Shown: positions 3,326 through 10,618 of the stretch, one piece after another
Layout: the number at the start of each line of letters is the position of its first letter
How positions within the stretch are numbered: the first letter of the stretch is position 1
NCBI GenBank assembly: GCA_016870455.1
Contig: VGBN01000009.1
Coordinates: 1 to 39,029, forward strand
Direction: 5' to 3'
DNA: 39,029 bases
Origin: Actinomycetota bacterium
GTDB lineage: Bacteria; Actinomycetota; Actinomycetes; Nanopelagicales; Nanopelagicaceae
The notes under the pieces: model-generated
The model's input: the letters and a program-made list of their open reading frames with translations, nothing else
Databases searched by the model: none
What the model was told of the DNA's origin: nothing
Position numbers and translations under genes: made by a program

Positions 3326-4414
3326 ATGAATCAATCACCTTTGGCAAATAGACATCTAGCTGCAAATGCCAAGATGGCCGATTTTGGTGGCTGGCTAATG
3401 CCGATTGAATACCCGGATACAGGTGCAATCGCCGAATACACCGCAGTCAGAGAACGAGTTGGATTATTTGATGTTTCCCATTTAGGCAAAATTTCTGTAA
3501 CTGGTGTTGGCGCAGTTGAGTATCTAAACAAAGTGATTACAAATGATTTAGCAAAGATTGACGCCGGACAAGCTCAATACACATTACTTTGCAATGAAGA
3601 TGGTGGTGTAGTTGATGATTTAATTGTTTATCTAAACAGTGATGAAGATTTGTTTTTGATCCCAAATGCTGCAAATACAACTGCTGTCTGTGAAATTCTC
3701 ACCCAAAATGCACCGAGTGGGGTGAGGGTAAAAAATCTTCATAAAGATTATGCCGTCCTTGCACTACAAGGAGCAGATTCAGCCAAAGTTTTAAGCAGAT
3801 TAGGTGTGGATGCCTCACTGGAATACATGTCTTTTATAAATACCACGATCGGCAACTTGCCCGTGATTCTCTGCCGTACTGGATACACCGGTGAGTTTGG
3901 ATTTGAGATTATTCCTAGTTGGCCTGATGCCGAGCAGGTTTGGGATCAGATTGTCTTAGTAGTTAAAGAGTTTGGTGGCGCAATTTGTGGCCTAGGTGCA
4001 AGAGATCTACTTCGCACCGAGATGGGTTACCCACTTCATGGCCATGAGCTATCACTTTCCATCACACCAGTTGAGGCTGGAGCTGGCTGGGCGGTTGGTT
4101 GGAGTAAGGAGCAATTCCGAGGAAAAAAAGTATTAACCCAACAAATAGAACTGGGTAGTAAGTTGAGATTAAAAGCAATACTGGCAACGGAGCGAGGAAT
4201 TCCCAGAAAAGATATGCAGGTTAAAAATCTGCAAGGTGAGTTAATTGGCAAGGTAACTAGTGGCACCTACTCACCAGCTTTGAAAAAGGGAATTGGCTTG
4301 GCTTTAGTTAACTCAGATGTTAAAAAAGATGATCAAGTATTGATTGATATCCGGGGAACTGATTCAACTTTTAAGGTTGTTTCACTTCCCTTTGTGCCAT
4401 CTAAAGTTCGATAA
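3326..4414 (+). CDS. gcvT: Glycine cleavage system T protein (aminomethyltransferase)
   Basis: Transfers the methylene group from the aminomethyl arm of the H protein to tetrahydrofolate, releasing ammonia. Length 362 residues, typical. The start has the family pattern of an N-terminal GGWLMPIEY segment, followed by VGLFDVSHLGK near residue 47. Tetrahydrofolate-pocket residues lie in LCRTGYTGEFGFEI near residue 185, and the C-terminal barrel shows the usual GTYSPALKKGIGLALV. It stands alone: the two neighbours are on the other strand, and gcvP and gcvH are not in the window. The enzyme call is firm. A YgfZ-like protein is unlikely because the full T-protein length and folate motifs are present. 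The convergent 53-residue gene ends 30 bp downstream. Confidence 0.95.
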   Translation: MNQSPLANRHLAANAKMADFGGWLMPIEYPDTGAIAEYTAVRERVGLFDVSHLGKISVTGVGAVEYLNKVITNDLAKIDAGQAQYTLLCNEDGGVVDDLIVYLNSDEDLFLIPNAANTTAVCEILTQNAPSGVRVKNLHKDYAVLALQGADSAKVLSRLGVDASLEYMSFINTTIGNLPVILCRTGYTGEFGFEIIPSWPDAEQVWDQIVLVVKEFGGAICGLGARDLLRTEMGYPLHGHELSLSITPVEAGAGWAVGWSKEQFRGKKVLTQQIELGSKLRLKAILATERGIPRKDMQVKNLQGELIGKVTSGTYSPALKKGIGLALVNSDVKKDDQVLIDIRGTDSTFKVVSLPFVPSKVR

Positions 4415-4443
4415 GGCCAAGCCAGTTTTCTTAAGCTAGATTT

Positions 4444-4605
4444 TTAGTGACCACCCCAAAAACGCCATGCAAACTCAGCGATATTGGTGCCTACATAAAG
4501 AATTCCCACGTGAACTGTGAGTCCTAAAATCTTTGCAAACAGTGATTTGCCAGCAGTTGATTTCTTAACAGTGACAATGGCTGGTGCTTGATAACTAGAT
4601 AACAT
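4444..4605 (-). CDS. 53-residue single-helix membrane protein in the B12-riboswitch operon, function unknown
   Basis: A short gene of 53 codons on the minus strand, second in the riboswitch-controlled unit. ATG at 4603-4605 has AGGAG five bases upstream. The protein has a basic 20-residue head, one hydrophobic helix at about residues 22-45 (LFAKILGLTVHVGILYVGTN), and an aromatic tail ending FWRFWGGH-like (AEFAWRFWGGH). One His lies in the helix and one at the C-terminus. I do not recognise the family. Size, one helix and B12-riboswitch control recall CbtB-type cobalt transporter subunits, but the His-rich CbtB tail is not there. It begins 8 bp after the DUF4430 gene stop, so the two are surely cotranscribed. 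A small partner subunit for a cobalamin or cobalt uptake protein is the best guess. Confidence 0.72.
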   Translation of the reverse strand: MLSSYQAPAIVTVKKSTAGKSLFAKILGLTVHVGILYVGTNIAEFAWRFWGGH

Positions 4606-4613
4606 TTGGACTC

Positions 4614-5141
4614 CTACTTAGGAAACTTAACATTACCATTATCGGCAAAGACAAAGGCTAATGAATCACCTGGATTTAGCGCCAGATCAGCCACACCCAC
4701 CTGAGCCCATGCCCATTTAGTGTTTAAGTCAGCTGGATTGGGAAGGGCTTGTTTGCGTTTTTCTAACAGCGCCCAATATGCAAACTCAGCCGGCATATCC
4801 TTACAACTTTCGATGTAATCCTCATGACCCTTGACCCCAATTGGTTCATTTGGCTTTGGCAGATTATTTAATCGACAAACAACAGCGGTGCCATATTTAT
4901 CTGTGCCCTGGATATTAAAGTTTGCATTTGTCATTAGCTCTAATGCAGTGGTTTGGCCATCTACGGGCAAACACTTTTCATACGGCTTTGCCGAAGCATC
5001 CAAAATGCCATAATCAATAACCACATTGACACAGTTTTTTGTGGTTTGTGAGGAGTAAAAACTAACCCCACCGATTATTACCGCTGCAGCGATGATGCCT
5101 GGAATGAATTTCTTAACCTTTATAAACAACTTACTGAACAT
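4614..5141 (-). CDS. Membrane-anchored transcobalamin-like (DUF4430) protein under B12 riboswitch control
   Basis: 175 residues. Residues 1-12 are basic, 13-30 are one hydrophobic segment (FIPGIIAAAVIIGGVSFY), and the rest would lie outside the membrane. The exported part fits the DUF4430/transcobalamin C-terminal fold: an opening VNVVIDYG strand, VDGQTTALELM near residue 60, KYGTAVVCRLNNLP near residue 82, then WALLEKRK, the WAWAQVG segment and a closing LNPGDSLAFVF. Four Cys (in NCVNV, KCLPV, VVCRL and ESCKD) could form two disulfides. In known proteins this fold binds or presents cobalamin. With the riboswitch upstream, a surface cobalamin-binding or uptake role is likely. ATG follows GAGAGGAAG by three bases. 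No ABC or ECF transporter genes are adjacent. The fold assignment is by motif reading only. Confidence 0.8.
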   Translation of the reverse strand: MFSKLFIKVKKFIPGIIAAAVIIGGVSFYSSQTTKNCVNVVIDYGILDASAKPYEKCLPVDGQTTALELMTNANFNIQGTDKYGTAVVCRLNNLPKPNEPIGVKGHEDYIESCKDMPAEFAYWALLEKRKQALPNPADLNTKWAWAQVGVADLALNPGDSLAFVFADNGNVKFPK

Positions 5142-5144
5142 GTA

Positions 5145-5163
5145 CTTCCTCTCAAATAGAGAG
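5145..5163 (-). promoter_or_regulatory. Hairpin over the Shine-Dalgarno of the DUF4430 gene
   Basis: On the minus strand CTCTC, a five-base loop and GAGAG (plus-strand 5149-5163) form a small stem. Its 3' arm is the beginning of the GAGAGGAAG ribosome binding site (5145-5153). Folding would hide the site, so the leader may act on translation as well as on termination. Confidence 0.45.
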
Positions 5164-5176
5164 TTTCACGTAAGCG

Positions 5177-5196
5177 AAAAAACTCATCTAGATGAG
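5177..5196 (-). terminator. Intrinsic terminator of the cobalamin riboswitch
   Basis: Directly after the aptamer, on the minus strand, a perfect 14-base palindrome CTCATCTAGATGAG (5183-5196) is followed by six T residues (5177-5182). This is a compact rho-independent terminator and the likely expression platform, ending transcription before the DUF4430 gene when cobalamin is bound. Confidence 0.8.
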
Positions 5197-5200
5197 ATTT

Positions 5201-5354
5201 CCCGCCCCGCAATCCTCGACGGGTGGTAAAAAATAAAATGTGTTGGGTAATCCGACTTGAAATAAATTTTTCTCACGGTTGCGGGACAGCGTCGGATTTT
5301 CACCGACTTCCCCCAGTCACATTCATTTGCTTTCAATATTAAGTTGTAGGCGGA
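5201..5354 (-). promoter_or_regulatory. Cobalamin (B12) riboswitch aptamer
   Basis: Read on the minus strand, the conserved core appears in order: GGGGGAAGTCGGTGAAAATC, CCGACGCTGTCCCGCAACCG with GTGAG (the B12 box), then AAGTCGGATTACCC about 20 bases later. The ends can pair as P1: TCCGCC at the 5' side (5349-5354) with GGCGGG at the 3' side (5201-5206). It lies upstream of the DUF4430 and 53-residue genes and ends at a terminator hairpin, the layout of an OFF switch. The P1 limits are my inference; the core match is direct. Confidence 0.94.
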
Positions 5355-5418
5355 GTATGCTGCCATCGCCTAGATAGCGCAACTCACCACGCCAATTGCC
5401 TAGATTTCAAGGTGGGGT

Positions 5419-5424
5419 TATGGT
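5419..5424 (+). promoter_or_regulatory. -10 hexamer of the aldo/keto reductase gene, leaderless type
   Basis: TATGGT ends six bases before the ATG at 5431, with no ribosome binding site between. It lies back to back with the riboswitch leader, so 5355-5418 must hold both upstream promoter regions. Confidence 0.5.
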
Positions 5425-5430
5425 TGGCAG

Positions 5431-6432
5431 ATGCAATACCGTCGCCTCGGCAGCACTGGCATGTATGTCTCTGAATTAACCTATGGAAATTGGATTACCC
5501 ATGGCTCACAGGTTGAGGCGGAGGCGGCAACAAAATGTGTGCGGGCAGCCCTTGAGTATGGAATTACTACCTTAGATACCGCTGATGTTTATGCCGGAAC
5601 TAGAGCTGAAACCGTACTAGGCAAAGCCTTAAAAGGGGTTCGGCGTGAATCATATGAGTTATTCACCAAGGTTTACTGGCCAACTGGCACTGGCAAAAAT
5701 GATCGTGGTCTATCCCGCAAACACATCATGGAGTCATGCAATGCTTCGTTGAAGCGGTTAAAGACTGATTATGTAGATCTCTATCAAGCCCATCGATTTG
5801 ATTATGAAACACCATTAGAGGAGACCTTAGGTGCATTTGATGATCTGATTCGAAGTGGCAAGGTTTTATATATTGGTTTTTCAGAGTGGAATGCTGAGCA
5901 AATAGCTGCAGCACTTAAGATCCAAGATCAAAAAGGTTATTACCGTTTCATTTCTAGCCAGCCCCAATACTCGATGTTGTGGCGCGTGATTGAATCCCAG
6001 GTTGTCCCGCTCTCTGAAAAAGAGGGGATTGGTCAGATTGTTTGGTCACCAATTGCTCAAGGTGTTTTAACTGGTAAGTATCTACCTGGACAAAAAGCAC
6101 CTGCTGGCTCTCGTGCCACCGATAAAAAAGGTGGGGCAAATATGATCGCTGGATTAATGAAGGAGCCTATATTGGAAGCGGTACAAAAGTTAGTACCGAT
6201 TGCTGCCAAGGTGGATTTAACCCTTGCGCAATTGGCAATTGCTTGGGTATTACAAAATCCAAATGTTTCCAGTGCCATTATTGGCGCAACTAAACCTGCC
6301 CAAATCAAAGAGAATGTAAAGGCAGCTGGGGTAAAACTTGATCAGTCGATTATGAATGAGATTGATCAGGCGCTTACTGGCGTGATCACCACTGATCCAG
6401 CTAAAACAATTAGCCCTAAACCAAGAGCGTAA
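5431..6432 (+). CDS. Aldo/keto reductase, Kv-beta/YghZ-like
   Basis: Cytosolic NADPH-dependent oxidoreductase of the aldo/keto reductase superfamily, 333 residues. The opening MQYRRLGSTGMYVSELTYGN is the AKR beta-hairpin and first strand. The catalytic set is visible: D49 and Y54 in LDTADVYAG, K80 in ELFTKVYW, H121 in LYQAHRFDY. The cofactor side shows SQPQYSML and WSPIAQGVLTGKY, as in Kv-beta and YghZ-type proteins, and near the C-terminus IIGATKPAQIKENVKA. Substrates in this subgroup are small aldehydes and ketones such as methylglyoxal; the true substrate here cannot be told. Convergent with the DUF3043 gene, stops three bases apart. Confidence 0.9.
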   Translation: MQYRRLGSTGMYVSELTYGNWITHGSQVEAEAATKCVRAALEYGITTLDTADVYAGTRAETVLGKALKGVRRESYELFTKVYWPTGTGKNDRGLSRKHIMESCNASLKRLKTDYVDLYQAHRFDYETPLEETLGAFDDLIRSGKVLYIGFSEWNAEQIAAALKIQDQKGYYRFISSQPQYSMLWRVIESQVVPLSEKEGIGQIVWSPIAQGVLTGKYLPGQKAPAGSRATDKKGGANMIAGLMKEPILEAVQKLVPIAAKVDLTLAQLAIAWVLQNPNVSSAIIGATKPAQIKENVKAAGVKLDQSIMNEIDQALTGVITTDPAKTISPKPRA

Positions 6433-6435
6433 GGG

Positions 6436-6960
6436 TTACTTTTTCTTACCCTTAATTGGGGATATCTGCGGGGCGGGAGCGCGTAATCGCCTAAGTTGTG
6501 TGGCGCGCATCCAACCATATAGCCCAATACCTTTAGTTGGCTGATCGGGAAATTTCTCTCGAACAATTCTCTTAATCCTGCGAGAGAGCAAGATGCCATC
6601 TAAGGTAATAAAAATCATGGATGAGTACATCACCGCCACCGCTGCAAGTTGAACTGCTGGAATTGGAATGATGGTCATAAATAAAACCACCATGATGATA
6701 ATCAAAAAGTATTCAGCGACCGATTTTCGTTCATCAATATAATTTCTAACAAATCTTCTAGCTGGACCGCGATCTCTAAGTGGGAGCGCAGCCTCCTCAC
6801 CACGCATGTAGGCAGCTCTTGCCTCCATCCGACGTTTTCTGGCCTGTTCTTTTAACGCCCGCTTTGCCTCTTTACTTGCACCTGGCGATAAAGGTGAGAC
6901 CTTTAATTTAGCCTGCGCCTCTTTGCGCTTTGGAGTTGGCTTTCCTTTTTTTCCGCTCAT
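6436..6960 (-). CDS. DUF3043 family membrane protein
   Basis: 174 residues, an actinobacterial family of unknown function. The N-terminal 50 residues are strongly basic and charged (lysine- and arginine-rich, low complexity). A conserved block DRGPARRFVRNYIDERKS follows at about 62-80. Two hydrophobic helices are at about 84-105 and 107-127 (YFLIIIMVVLFMTIIPIPAV and AAVAVMYSSMIFITLDGILL), then a basic tail ending IKGKKK. The RDRGPARRFVRNYID block and paired helices are the basis for the family call. It is directly downstream of nadA (4 bp gap) and probably cotranscribed. In Actinobacteria it commonly sits in this erpA/nadA/cta neighbourhood. No role can be given. Confidence 0.85.
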   Translation of the reverse strand: MSGKKGKPTPKRKEAQAKLKVSPLSPGASKEAKRALKEQARKRRMEARAAYMRGEEAALPLRDRGPARRFVRNYIDERKSVAEYFLIIIMVVLFMTIIPIPAVQLAAVAVMYSSMIFITLDGILLSRRIKRIVREKFPDQPTKGIGLYGWMRATQLRRLRAPAPQISPIKGKKK

Positions 6961-6964
6961 GTGA

Positions 6965-8107
6965 TTAAGGTAGAGCCAACATTTGCTCTAATGCAACTTT
7001 TGCATACCTTGCAACCTCATCTTTAACCTTAATTTGATTAACTACTCGACCGCCTACCAATGCCTCCATCGCCCAAACTAAGTGTGGTAGGTCGATTCGG
7101 TTCATCGTTGAGCAGTAGCAGACAGTTTTATCTAAGAAAACTACCTGCTTATCGGGATTCTCATTGGCCAACCGTTGCACCAGATTTAATTCAGTACCGA
7201 TTGCCCATTTAGAGCCAGCTGGTGATTGAGTAACAGTTTTAATTATCATCTCAGTACTTCCAACCACATCAGCATTTGCCACGACCTCATGCTGACACTC
7301 TGGGTGGACTAAAACCTTTACGCCAGGAAGCTTTTGTCTTACCTCATTTATGTTTTGCAAGGTGAATCTGCCATGCACTGAGCAGTGTCCGCGCCATAAA
7401 ATTACCTTGGCCGCCTTTATCTGCTCATCAGTTAAACCACCATTTGGCTTCCATGGGTTATAAACCACGCAATCGCCTAAGGAGAGCCCAAGGGATAGCA
7501 CTGCGGTATTCCTACCTAAGTGTTGATCTGGTAAAAATAAAATTTTCTCACCCTTGGCAAAGGCCCATTTCATCGCCCGAGCCGCATTTGAGGAGGTGCA
7601 AACTGCGCCGTGATTCTTACCGGTAAATGCTTTGATAGCAGCAGATGAATTCATATAAGTAATTGGGGTAGTAACTTTTGCAACACCAATTTTTTCTAGC
7701 ACCTGCCAGCAATCTGCCACCTGGGATGCAGTTGCCATATCTGCCATTGAACAGCCCGCAGCTAGATCGGGCAAAATCACCTTTTGATTTGCAGAGGTTA
7801 ATATGTCAGCACTCTCTGCCATAAAGTGAACACCGCAGAAAAATATAAACTCAGCACCACTGTTATCAGCTGCAGCTTGAGCTAACTTAAAGGAGTCACC
7901 ACGAATATCGGCAAAGGCAATCACCTCATCTCGCTGGTAGTGATGACCTAACACCATTGCTTTATCACCTAGTTGTTGGCGGGCGGTGGCAGCACGGGTC
8001 AGCAGCTGCGGATCACTTGCCGCTGGCAGTGCTCCCTCACAGGAGACGCCGCGCTCGCTACCGAGATCAACGCCACTGCCGAGCAGAAGCAGATCACTTA
8101 TTCCCAT
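6965..8107 (-). CDS. nadA: Quinolinate synthase
   Basis: Condenses iminoaspartate with dihydroxyacetone phosphate to quinolinate, the second step of de novo NAD synthesis, using a 4Fe-4S cluster. 380 residues, matching the long NadA class. Triplicated-domain motifs are visible: LGHHYQRDEVIAFADIRGDS near residue 52, FFCGVHFMAESADI (first cluster Cys), VHPECQHEVV (second) and a C-terminal VCYCSTMNRI (third). ATG at 8105-8107 has no ribosome binding site but has TACACT seven bases upstream, so it is probably leaderless. A palindrome covers this promoter. nadB and nadC are not in the window. The neighbour erpA, an Fe-S carrier, is divergent, which fits an Fe-S enzyme needing cluster delivery. Confidence 0.95.
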   Translation of the reverse strand: MGISDLLLLGSGVDLGSERGVSCEGALPAASDPQLLTRAATARQQLGDKAMVLGHHYQRDEVIAFADIRGDSFKLAQAAADNSGAEFIFFCGVHFMAESADILTSANQKVILPDLAAGCSMADMATASQVADCWQVLEKIGVAKVTTPITYMNSSAAIKAFTGKNHGAVCTSSNAARAMKWAFAKGEKILFLPDQHLGRNTAVLSLGLSLGDCVVYNPWKPNGGLTDEQIKAAKVILWRGHCSVHGRFTLQNINEVRQKLPGVKVLVHPECQHEVVANADVVGSTEMIIKTVTQSPAGSKWAIGTELNLVQRLANENPDKQVVFLDKTVCYCSTMNRIDLPHLVWAMEALVGGRVVNQIKVKDEVARYAKVALEQMLALP

Positions 8108-8130
8108 GTGAGCAAGTGTAAACGCTCACA
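8107..8130 (-). promoter_or_regulatory. nadA promoter with candidate operator palindrome
   Basis: The minus-strand -10 hexamer TACACT (plus 8115-8120) lies seven bases before the nadA ATG. It is enclosed by a perfect 7-bp inverted repeat, TGTGAGC at 8107-8113 and GCTCACA at 8124-8130, with ten bases between. A dimeric repressor bound here would block the -10 and the transcription start. The factor is not identifiable from the site. Confidence 0.55.
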
Positions 8131-8197
8131 GGTTTGAGTGAGGAAATATCTGATCAGAACTAGTAACCTATGAGCCTAAGATCAAATTGGAGATTAA

Positions 8198-8554
8198 GTG
8201 AGTATGAGCACAGAGACAACTACTACTGGGATTGCATTAACTGATGTGGCAGCCCAAAAGGTTTCCGCCTTGCTAAAGCAAGAAGGTAGAGATGATTTAA
8301 GTCTGCGGGTAGCGGTTCAACCTGGTGGTTGCTCAGGTCTTCGTTATCAACTTTACTTTGATGATCGGGCACTCGATGGCGACAGTGTTACTGAGTTTGG
8401 TGCCGATAAGGTGAAGGTGGTAACCGACAAAATGAGCACACCATATTTGATGGGTGCCACTATTGATTTTGTTGACACAATTGAGAAGCAAGGCTTCACA
8501 ATTGATAATCCAAATGCTCAAGGCTCATGTGCCTGCGGCGATTCATTTAACTAG
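8198..8554 (+). CDS. erpA: A-type iron-sulfur carrier (HesB/ErpA family)
   Basis: Carries and inserts 4Fe-4S clusters into target enzymes in the cytosol. 118 residues. The three cluster Cys are in place: one in VQPGGCSGLRYQL near residue 44 and two in the C-terminal GSCACGDSF. The core FVDTIEKQGFTIDNPNA is typical of the family. A GTG start at 8198 lies five bases after GGAG; an ATG at 8204 would also work. TAACCT at 8164-8169 could be its -10 hexamer, giving a short leader. It is divergent from nadA and followed at 19 bp by the PfkB gene. The family is certain; erpA rather than another A-type carrier rests on actinobacterial gene order. Confidence 0.92.
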   Translation: MSMSTETTTTGIALTDVAAQKVSALLKQEGRDDLSLRVAVQPGGCSGLRYQLYFDDRALDGDSVTEFGADKVKVVTDKMSTPYLMGATIDFVDTIEKQGFTIDNPNAQGSCACGDSFN

Positions 8555-8573
8555 TTAAAGTTATTTAAAAATT

Positions 8574-9563
8574 ATGAAGGTGGCGGTCGCCGGCTCTGTC
8601 GGTGGCGACCACATCATGAGCTTTGGTGGCAAATTTACCGACTCATTAGTTGCTGGCTCCTTGGCCAAACTCTCACTCTCCTTTTTAGTAGACACCCTAG
8701 AGATTAGGCGGGGTGGGTGTGGTGCAAATATTGCATTTGGAATGGGTGCACTAGGTTTAAATCCAATCTTGATTGCAGCTGTTGGCCGAGATTGGGTGGA
8801 TTACGAAGCCTGGCTTAAACGCCATGGTGTGGATACTTCTCATGTTTTAGTTTCAGAAAAACTTCACACCGCTACATTTATGGTGACAACTGATACTGAG
8901 TTAAATCAAATTGCATCCTTCTTTCCAGGGGCTATGAGCGAAGCACGCAATATTGAGCTAGAGCCAATAATGGCAAAGACTGGAAAATTCGATCTGCTAG
9001 TTATCTCCCCTGATGATCCAGAGGCCATGATGCGCTACTCCGAAATGGCTCGAACATTAAATATTCCAGTGGCAGCAGATCCATCTCAGCAAATGGCTCG
9101 TATGGATGGTAAAGAGATTGCCCAATTAATTGAAGGAGCGAAGTACCTCTTTTTAAATGAGTATGAGTTAGCACTTGCAATTCAAAAAACAGGTTGGACA
9201 GATCGACAGTTATTTGATCGGGTCCAGGTGCGGGTAGTAACACTTGGCTCAAAAGGTGCTCAGATTGAAGAGCATGGCAAAGAGAGTATTTATGTTGGTG
9301 TACCAAAGGAGAAGCAGAAGTTAGATCCAACCGGGGTTGGCGATAACTTCAGATCAGGCTTTATTGCCGGCCTATCTTGGGGATTAGGTCATGAGCGGTG
9401 TGGGCAGTTGGGATCACTGCTTGCAACATATTGCATTGAAACTACCGGAACGCAGGAGTATCGATTTACTAAGGAAGAGTTTGTTGCAAGATTTGAAGCA
9501 GCTTATGGCAAGGCGGCCGCTGATGAGATCAAGCCACATCTAAATGTTCGCCTGGTGGGCTAG
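8574..9563 (+). CDS. PfkB-family kinase, adenosine-kinase-like (AdoK/CbhK)
   Basis: Ribokinase-fold sugar or nucleoside kinase, 329 residues. The glycine-rich substrate motif RRGGCGANIAFGMGALG is near residue 46, followed by IAAVGRDWVDYEAWLKRHGVDT. The ATP/anion-hole signature DPTGVGDNFRSGFIAGLSWG is near residue 245, with the catalytic Asp in GVGD. Residues around FLNEYELALAIQKTGW fit the middle PfkB segment. In Mycobacterium the gene at this place, between ctaC and the HesB-like gene, is the PfkB-type adenosine kinase, so adenosine is the favoured substrate; the sequence alone does not prove it. Its 3' end overlaps the convergent cysteine-desulfurase-like gene by four bases. Confidence 0.88.
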   Translation: MKVAVAGSVGGDHIMSFGGKFTDSLVAGSLAKLSLSFLVDTLEIRRGGCGANIAFGMGALGLNPILIAAVGRDWVDYEAWLKRHGVDTSHVLVSEKLHTATFMVTTDTELNQIASFFPGAMSEARNIELEPIMAKTGKFDLLVISPDDPEAMMRYSEMARTLNIPVAADPSQQMARMDGKEIAQLIEGAKYLFLNEYELALAIQKTGWTDRQLFDRVQVRVVTLGSKGAQIEEHGKESIYVGVPKEKQKLDPTGVGDNFRSGFIAGLSWGLGHERCGQLGSLLATYCIETTGTQEYRFTKEEFVARFEAAYGKAAADEIKPHLNVRLVG

Positions 9564-10618
9564 TTTTTTCTAAGTTTTAAAACGGCAGATTTCAAAGCCT
9601 GACAAAAATCTTTCACCATCTGCTCAGTAATATCTTTATGGATTGTTAATCTAATATTTCCAGTAATTGGTCGATTCATCGCTGCTAAGACATGGCTAGG
9701 TTGCATATCAGCTGATTTGCAGGCTGAACCTGAGTCAACTGCAAAGCCAACTGACTCCAACTCCAGTAGTAATCGATCTGCCTCCAGATTGCTTATAGAA
9801 AATGAGACAAACTTTGATAATCCATCTGCCTCAGATGCGATATCAACCTGAGATATTTGGGAGGAGATAAACTCGATAATGTACTTTTTAAGCTGAGCCC
9901 TTACATCTTCCTGTGCAAGGTATGCGCTTAATGCTTGTGCGCTGGCAAGTACCAGCGGAGTTGAAAAGCCTCCTGGTGCTCGGGTGAAATCATTGTGGGG
10001 CAGGGGATTGCGCCACCGCTCTGCCTCTTTGATGACCAATATGCCAACTCCTTGTGGACCCTGCCATGCAGTGCTATCAAATAGGGCGGTTTGGTATTCA
10101 AAATTTGGCAACAAATCAACACCGCTAGCGGTGCAATCTGCAAAAATTAAACCAGAGGTTGGATTTACTGGCTGTGTATTTCCAGTTTCACCATTTGCCA
10201 CCTGCCAGACCACCACATCATCATCCTGAGCGGTATAGGAGTTTGTAGCACCTGTATTACTTACCGATAAGCAACTTACTTTGCGTCCTTTATTCTCTTC
10301 ATCAGCTGCGATAGCGAAGACTCTTTGTCGATCTATGCTGGAGTAATACAAATTGCTAGTTGATTTTAGTAGGCCGCAGATTCCTAATTGAAATCCCAGA
10401 TCACTCTCACCTAGAAATTCAATTTCATCTGGCCGAACTTTTAAAGTATTCGCAAATTTCTCTCTTGCCTGTTGGAGTAAAATCGCAACCTCTCTTGAGT
10501 TGGCATTTAACTTATTTGGATCAGCCCAACCCTTTGAAAATGATTGATTTAATTGGGCCATTGCCGCAGGGTGTAGCACTCTTTCTTGCTGAAAGTCGGC
10601 TGTGATACGAACCACCAT
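9560..10618 (-). CDS. Cysteine-desulfurase-like protein lacking the PLP lysine
   Basis: 352 residues with the fold-type-I aminotransferase class V layout of NifS/IscS. Recognisable parts: WQVANGETGNTQPVN near residue 138 (usual WANNETG), FADCTASG with the PLP-contacting Asp at 161, GPQGVGILVI near residue 187, GFSTPLVLASAQAL, and the active-site loop SGSACKSADMQPSHVL with Cys at 300, closing with NIRLTIHKDIT. The striking point is the motif that should read S-x-H-K-x-x-G-P: here it is D-S-T-A-W-Q-G-P, so the PLP-binding Lys is Ala184 and the preceding His is Thr183. The reading frame is intact. It may be a catalytically dead scaffold or sulfur acceptor that keeps its Cys. It is divergent from ctaC by 56 bp; related genes occur beside ctaC in other Actinobacteria. 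Confidence 0.82.
   Translation of the reverse strand: MVVRITADFQQERVLHPAAMAQLNQSFSKGWADPNKLNANSREVAILLQQAREKFANTLKVRPDEIEFLGESDLGFQLGICGLLKSTSNLYYSSIDRQRVFAIAADEENKGRKVSCLSVSNTGATNSYTAQDDDVVVWQVANGETGNTQPVNPTSGLIFADCTASGVDLLPNFEYQTALFDSTAWQGPQGVGILVIKEAERWRNPLPHNDFTRAPGGFSTPLVLASAQALSAYLAQEDVRAQLKKYIIEFISSQISQVDIASEADGLSKFVSFSISNLEADRLLLELESVGFAVDSGSACKSADMQPSHVLAAMNRPITGNIRLTIHKDITEQMVKDFCQALKSAVLKLRKN

Follow-up and report, generated by a model that had tools for sequence, protein, structure and literature searches.

In one genus of acI Actinobacteria, a cobalamin riboswitch is followed by just two small genes, p175 and p53, in the chromosomal interval where relatives carry complete B12 transporters. 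The pair and the ECF S component were mutually exclusive, and no known B12 importer was detectable in the pair-bearing genomes as searched. We consider it probable that p175 captures corrinoids extracellularly and works with p53, a partner in the membrane, as part of a B12 uptake system that replaces the ECF transporter. The riboswitch and the capture-type protein are of known kinds; what is new here is the loss of the transporter together with p53, and our literature search found no description of the pair. Those close relatives that carry names belong to the acI Actinobacteria (Ca. Nanopelagicaceae, Ca. Nanopelagicus, Ca. Planktophila, and SCGC single cells), which are the most abundant bacteria in most freshwater lakes (PMC5301498), and the pair-bearing genus appears to be acI-B, Ca. 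Nanopelagicus.

The gene pair and its leader

The window, meaning the whole 39,029-nucleotide stretch that was analyzed, comes from an 83% complete genome that totals 1.01 Mb over 58 contigs. On its minus strand, an AdoCbl riboswitch aptamer (5195..5336) is followed by p175 (4614..5141; 175 codons) and p53 (4444..4605; 53 codons), and then by convergent gcvT on the plus strand (3326..4414). By context, the interval is closed by gcvT on one side and, on the other, by the gene for an aldo/keto reductase (AKR; 5431..6432, plus strand), which diverges from the riboswitch. As the original prediction had it, the riboswitch controls only two genes, with no transporter gene next.

The claim of a complete cobalamin aptamer was also borne out, as cmscan matched RF01482 over the full model (1-149) on the minus strand from 5336 to 5195, scoring 62.1 bits where the gathering score is 50, at an E value of 3.1e-9. 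The aptamer core was nearly invariant across the 13 aligned leaders; covariation in this alignment of closely related sequences was weak and limited to few cases. The terminator that had been proposed was not recovered, with a terminator scan of the leader yielding no intrinsic terminator and the poly-T stretch of the window leader missing from 4 genomes in the 13-leader alignment. The conserved element is instead a hairpin (CTCTC-N5-GAGAG; 5149..5163, minus strand) whose 3′ arm covers the p175 Shine-Dalgarno sequence (GAGAGG). This hairpin was paired in 13/13 leaders despite differing loop lengths, and an alternative fold connects it with a hairpin at 5183-5196. Given the lack of a detected terminator, the non-conserved poly-T stretch, and the constant pairing of the Shine-Dalgarno hairpin, control is more likely translational than transcriptional, by sequestering of the Shine-Dalgarno sequence. 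The layout at the gene junction (TAGGAGT/TAGGGG; 4606..4617, minus strand) was identical in 14/14 pair genomes, with the p175 stop codon overlapping the p53 Shine-Dalgarno sequence, which suggests that translation of the two genes is coupled.

Across 296 genomes of the order, sampled at one per species, p53 occurred in 14 genomes of one genus and was absent from all others. p175 lay directly upstream in all 14 (the G003 copy being cut by the contig end), and every genome with a convincing match to either gene had the pair, so that the conserved pairing in relatives on which the original prediction depended was seen throughout. In the loci read, the pair was directly upstream of convergent gcvT. 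The riboswitch was present in 13 of the 14; in the remaining genome, G003, the contig stops inside p175. Nine of the pair genomes are less than 85% complete, while G001, G005, and G014 are single-contig genomes, defined here as one contig with 99-100% completeness. A weak 45-residue match in G008 fell within a CbiN-like open reading frame and was not counted as a pair. Nei-Gojobori dN/dS estimates were 0.1-0.4, mostly 0.1-0.25, for p53 and about 0.06-0.19 for p175; the p53 values indicate purifying selection rather than a chance open reading frame. Two public metagenome-assembled genomes named Bifidobacterium breve (L186, CAMCVO010000006.1; L194, CALPKA020000106.1) also contain this acI locus, and their labels look wrong.

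The predicted structure of p53 consists only of a single helix over residues 20-50. Conserved residues are H32, G39-T40, and W47-R48-x-W50, and the protein ends in His, Cys, or His-Tyr, in the variants WRxWGG-His, WGA-Cys, and WGGHY, while the N-terminal side is basic. Pfam searches of 13 members returned isolated weak matches only, the best of them a single member's match to a holin model (E 0.014), and NCBIfam gave no match; the description of p53 as a single-helix protein of no known family stands. No copies were found on viral contigs. We rejected p53 as a leftover of an ECF S or T component, for which there was no profile match, and as a member of CbtB or of any other small membrane family already known, for which there was no convincing Pfam match. 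An association of p53 with ECF or BtuCD genes in relatives, which had been suggested as worth seeking, did not emerge; p53 was absent from 32 relatives' loci, comprising B12 operons and empty-slot counterparts, and sat beside no ECF or BtuCD gene.

The gcvT-AKR slot in relatives and the search for an importer

Judged from its gene content across relatives, the gcvT-AKR interval is a B12-uptake slot. In the pair genomes it contains the riboswitch, p175, and p53 only. Four other species of the same genus (G011, G016, G018, and G022) carry in this position an AdoCbl riboswitch, an SCO2322-family protein, ECF T, a duplicated ATPase, and S, though in G018 and G011 the contig stops within the ECF operon and S turned up on a different contig. 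The same riboswitch and SCO2322/ECF content was seen in Ca. Planktophila-like g16 genomes and in g3 genomes, and a riboswitch-preceded ECF module has been reported for acI-A and acI-C (PMC5301498). In G030 (g7; L231, about 3523-6400), the riboswitch is followed by BtuF, BtuC, and BtuD; compared with the ECF-slot species, the slot swaps unrelated B12 transporters. The slot is empty in G008, G013, and G020, where gcvT and AKR are separated by less than 100 bases and no MetH scored above the cut-off, an absence that is provisional in these incomplete genomes (74-87%). G004, G012, G015, and G017 were left unclassified, either on account of a contig end or for want of a sighting of the gene. In an AKR tree of moderate support, ECF species fall outside a group containing the pair species, and the empty-slot species are nested among the latter, a topology that fits one ECF-to-pair replacement followed by loss. 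The gcvT of ECF-type G022 (L224, 734-1882) groups with g7 gcvT (L231, 6403-7527), while its AKR gene does not; recombination may have exchanged the slot and gcvT as one unit.

The exclusivity of pair and transporter was evident in the S-component profile of the slot, which matched 0/14 pair genomes but 4/4 ECF-slot sister species as well as G039. The single weak match in a pair genome, that of G024 (E 0.0015), spanned 52 residues of a 1040-aa frame. We read one pair genome, G014, in full (single contig, 1,238,108 bases). It encodes MetH and the class II, B12-dependent ribonucleotide reductase NrdJ, with neither a match to a metE query nor a class Ib nrdE, and it therefore depends on B12. The one cobalamin riboswitch found in this genome is located before the pair only. 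G001, also in a single contig, has NrdJ and no MetH over the cut-off. A second cobalamin riboswitch in G001 precedes class Ib nrdHIE (L040, G001:C1:253663-253811, and G001 405467-408253), with NrdJ also kept; a cobalamin riboswitch ahead of class Ib nrd genes is the textbook arrangement for a B12-repressed backup enzyme. Elsewhere, in L228 (G026, 3685-6063), a metE-like gene is preceded by a match to the cobalamin riboswitch.

Profile and six-frame searches of G014 with HMMER filters off yielded neither ECF T nor S of the Cbr type. For G001, the S-component search covered the entire genome, and the local search, in which ECF T had no match, covered 800 of 1,162 kb. FecCD-type permeases (BtuC) had no match in the 14 pair genomes, with control genomes positive, and ABC_membrane_2 (BacA/Rv1819c-type) matched 0/19 genomes. 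CbiQ was not matched in single-contig G005 and G014, though some incomplete pair genomes, including that of the window, did have matches. The CbiQ of the window's genome belongs to a CbiMNQO-like cobalt ECF system (L115, C12, 5822-8358), which we dropped as a candidate energizer given that G005 and G014 had no CbiQ match. G014 does have several ABC importers of other types, and a partial scan of ten of its membrane proteins against Pfam found no S-component family. The original prediction had placed the partner transporter elsewhere in the genome; in the ECF or BtuCD sense neither was found in the pair genomes, and the pair sits in their slot. These absences refer to profiles for the known importer types named above, and a BtuM-like or other very divergent importer in pair genomes is possible. 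In one study, acI-B is predicted to be auxotrophic for AdoCbl/B12 and an identified transporter is mentioned (PMC5574706); that annotation may rest on ECF-slot relatives or on a gene unrecognized here.

Relationship of p175 to the SCO2322 family

p175 comprises an N-terminal membrane anchor and a cysteine-rich extracytoplasmic domain. Its proposed membership of DUF4430 was not upheld. p175 had no Pfam or NCBIfam match even at E 10, Pfam (DUF4430 included) matched none of the 13 acI sequences and 18 sequences from the wider family, and DUF4430 (PF14478) itself gave no match at E 10 for p175 nor at E 1 for its distant relatives, though a resemblance may be real. No sequence relative was found in the PDB, and the predicted structure, computed from too few and too similar sequences, had a mean pLDDT of 50.5, too low for use in fold comparison.

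A profile search retrieved distant p175 relatives in other families, where they adjoin ECF T-U-S genes in 13/14 loci; another such case is G062. Several of these relatives have a lipobox where acI p175 has a membrane helix. The idea of a surface-anchored protein is in keeping with both the N-terminal anchor and the encoding of distant relatives beside B12-type ECF transporters. Plasmid relatives in Arthrobacter, Embleya, and Streptomyces carry no useful annotation.

When the wide p175 alignment was compared with SCO2322 using hhalign, the score rose from 41.1 in native order to 60.8 (E 1.6e-9) after the halves were exchanged, against scores of 11-12 for a shuffled-column control. The p175 HMM also matched 9/9 slot SCO2322-type open reading frames as two pieces in swapped order. 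It is the alignment of the wide family that supports permutation; the acI p175 sequences alone, which are too uniform, had no significant SCO2322 match, and the SCO2322 profile NF040672, in native domain order, gave no NCBIfam match to p175. On these profile comparisons, circular permutation relates the SCO2322 family to the relatives of p175, which means that the first genes of the ECF operon and the pair operon would carry related domains in two orders. The permutation links two poorly characterized families from B12-type ECF operons of Actinobacteria. Two loci have two p175-type domains each beside ECF genes (L108 of G210, 5720-10419; L113 of G172, 2209-2559 and 6644-7381); these domains may be duplicates and could help to explain how the permutation arose.

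Proposed function and comparison with known systems

Low AdoCbl relieving repression is the standard logic of cobalamin riboswitches. In the mechanism that we favor, low intracellular AdoCbl would lead the riboswitch to free the ribosome-binding site of p175, allowing translation of the two-gene message. Anchored by its N-terminal helix, p175 would display its extracytoplasmic domain outside the cell and capture cobalamin there, a role suggested by the genomic company of its relatives. The helix of p53 would be embedded in the membrane, and the positive-inside rule predicts that the C-terminal Trp-Arg-x-Trp-Gly-Gly-His/Cys end faces outward; there p53 would either pair p175 with a translocation step or form part of translocation. 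It is a speculation that this His/Cys end ligates cobalt, as in BtuM. The energized translocator would more likely be an unrecognized permease elsewhere in the genome, and less likely involve p53 itself. In the B12-uptake slot, p175 and p53 together have displaced the ECF transporter, keeping the same switch. Cobalamin binding, the p175-p53 partnership, and the transport route are what we infer here. We advance only tentatively the stronger proposal that the pair constitutes a new ECF-independent B12 uptake system, in whose evolution an ancestral transporter lost its ECF motor and substrate channel, while a permuted capture domain was retained or gained along with a novel one-helix protein that has a part in translocation.

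How much of the transport the pair performs is where the readings diverge. At one extreme, p175 and p53 would be the whole importer, with p53 oligomerizing or lining a pore that p175 feeds, and with no ATPase or polytopic permease. The pair alone does fill a slot that elsewhere holds complete transporters, no known importer was detected in G014, and the conserved p53 has one His within the membrane and a His/Cys at the C-terminus. We nevertheless regard this as quite unlikely, as it is not evident where the energy would come from, acI genomes encode several ABC permeases open to sharing, and we are aware of no other case in which one 53-aa helix moves a corrinoid. A point in its favor is BtuM, which ligates cobalt via Cys and is proposed to act without an ECF module (PMC6072759). 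At the other extreme, a divergent or generic permease encoded elsewhere, such as a solitary S-component resembling BtuM or an ABC importer with promiscuous nucleoside/sugar uptake, would do all of the transport, leaving the pair as an affinity helper. Solitary BioY without an ECF module has been reported in acI genomes (PMC5301498), the other-type ABC importers of G014 would offer candidates, and p175 relatives elsewhere look like accessory lipoproteins. Yet the only B12 riboswitch found in G014 controls the pair alone, when relatives put a whole transporter under that switch, and the partial scan of G014 membrane proteins revealed no S-component family; we hold this reading to be possible but rather doubtful.

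The pair might also have nothing to do with uptake, being either a decaying remnant or a B12-linked surface system for storage, sensing, or corrinoid processing. The absence of the transporter core and the membership of p175 in an accessory family would both suit such a role. We judge it very unlikely in view of the purifying selection on p175 and p53 across diverged species and the retention of the riboswitch wherever the contig extends far enough to include it. G014, moreover, relies on B12-requiring enzymes, and auxotrophy is predicted for acI-B (PMC5574706).

The riboswitch of relatives drives a complete importer and that of the pair genomes only p175 and p53, with no known importer found, and for this reason the pair is the best lead to B12 uptake in these B12-dependent cells. 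With the sole B12-switched operon found in G014 placing two small proteins in the transporter slot, acI B12 uptake becomes a two-gene question. If true, our proposal would reveal a vitamin importer of a new class or else an adaptor, likewise new, lending B12 specificity to a general permease. The original prediction is partly supported: riboswitch control, gene pairing, the anchored protein, and the lack of a known family for p53 carry over; DUF4430, the terminator, and an ECF or BtuCD transporter elsewhere do not.

Several known systems invite comparison. BtuM is a solitary S-fold importer with six transmembrane helices, as opposed to one in p53, and no sequence relation between the two is known. 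It is proposed to import B12 without an ECF module, with cobalt ligation by Cys (PMC6072759). BtuFCD occupies the identical riboswitch slot in G030, whereas the pair genomes showed no FecCD-type permease. The DUF4430/transcobalamin C-terminal domain, considered here together with the “additional lipoprotein component” of cobalamin ECF transporters in Lactobacillales, is, like p175, an extracytoplasmic domain tied to B12 transport genes (PMC9963975; cbrS beside cbrT in PMC5997447), though p175 has no Pfam match. The SCO2322 family (NF040672), encoded by the first gene of the ECF operon, shares the slot, the riboswitch, and two half-domains with p175, but the halves of p175 are in the opposite order and its acI anchor is N-terminal, while the SCO2322 anchor of sister species is C-terminal. 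A further comparison is with the actinobacterial B12-type ECF operon itself (CbrTUV type: T, duplicated ATPase, and S) and its extracytoplasmic lipoprotein. Its Nanopelagicaceae versions share the AdoCbl riboswitch, and the lipoprotein beside T-U-S is homologous to p175 in the 13/14 other loci and G062. By comparison, the pair slot lacks T, U, and S, with T and S also missing from the pair genomes searched; p175 has a membrane helix in place of the lipobox, and p53 has been added.
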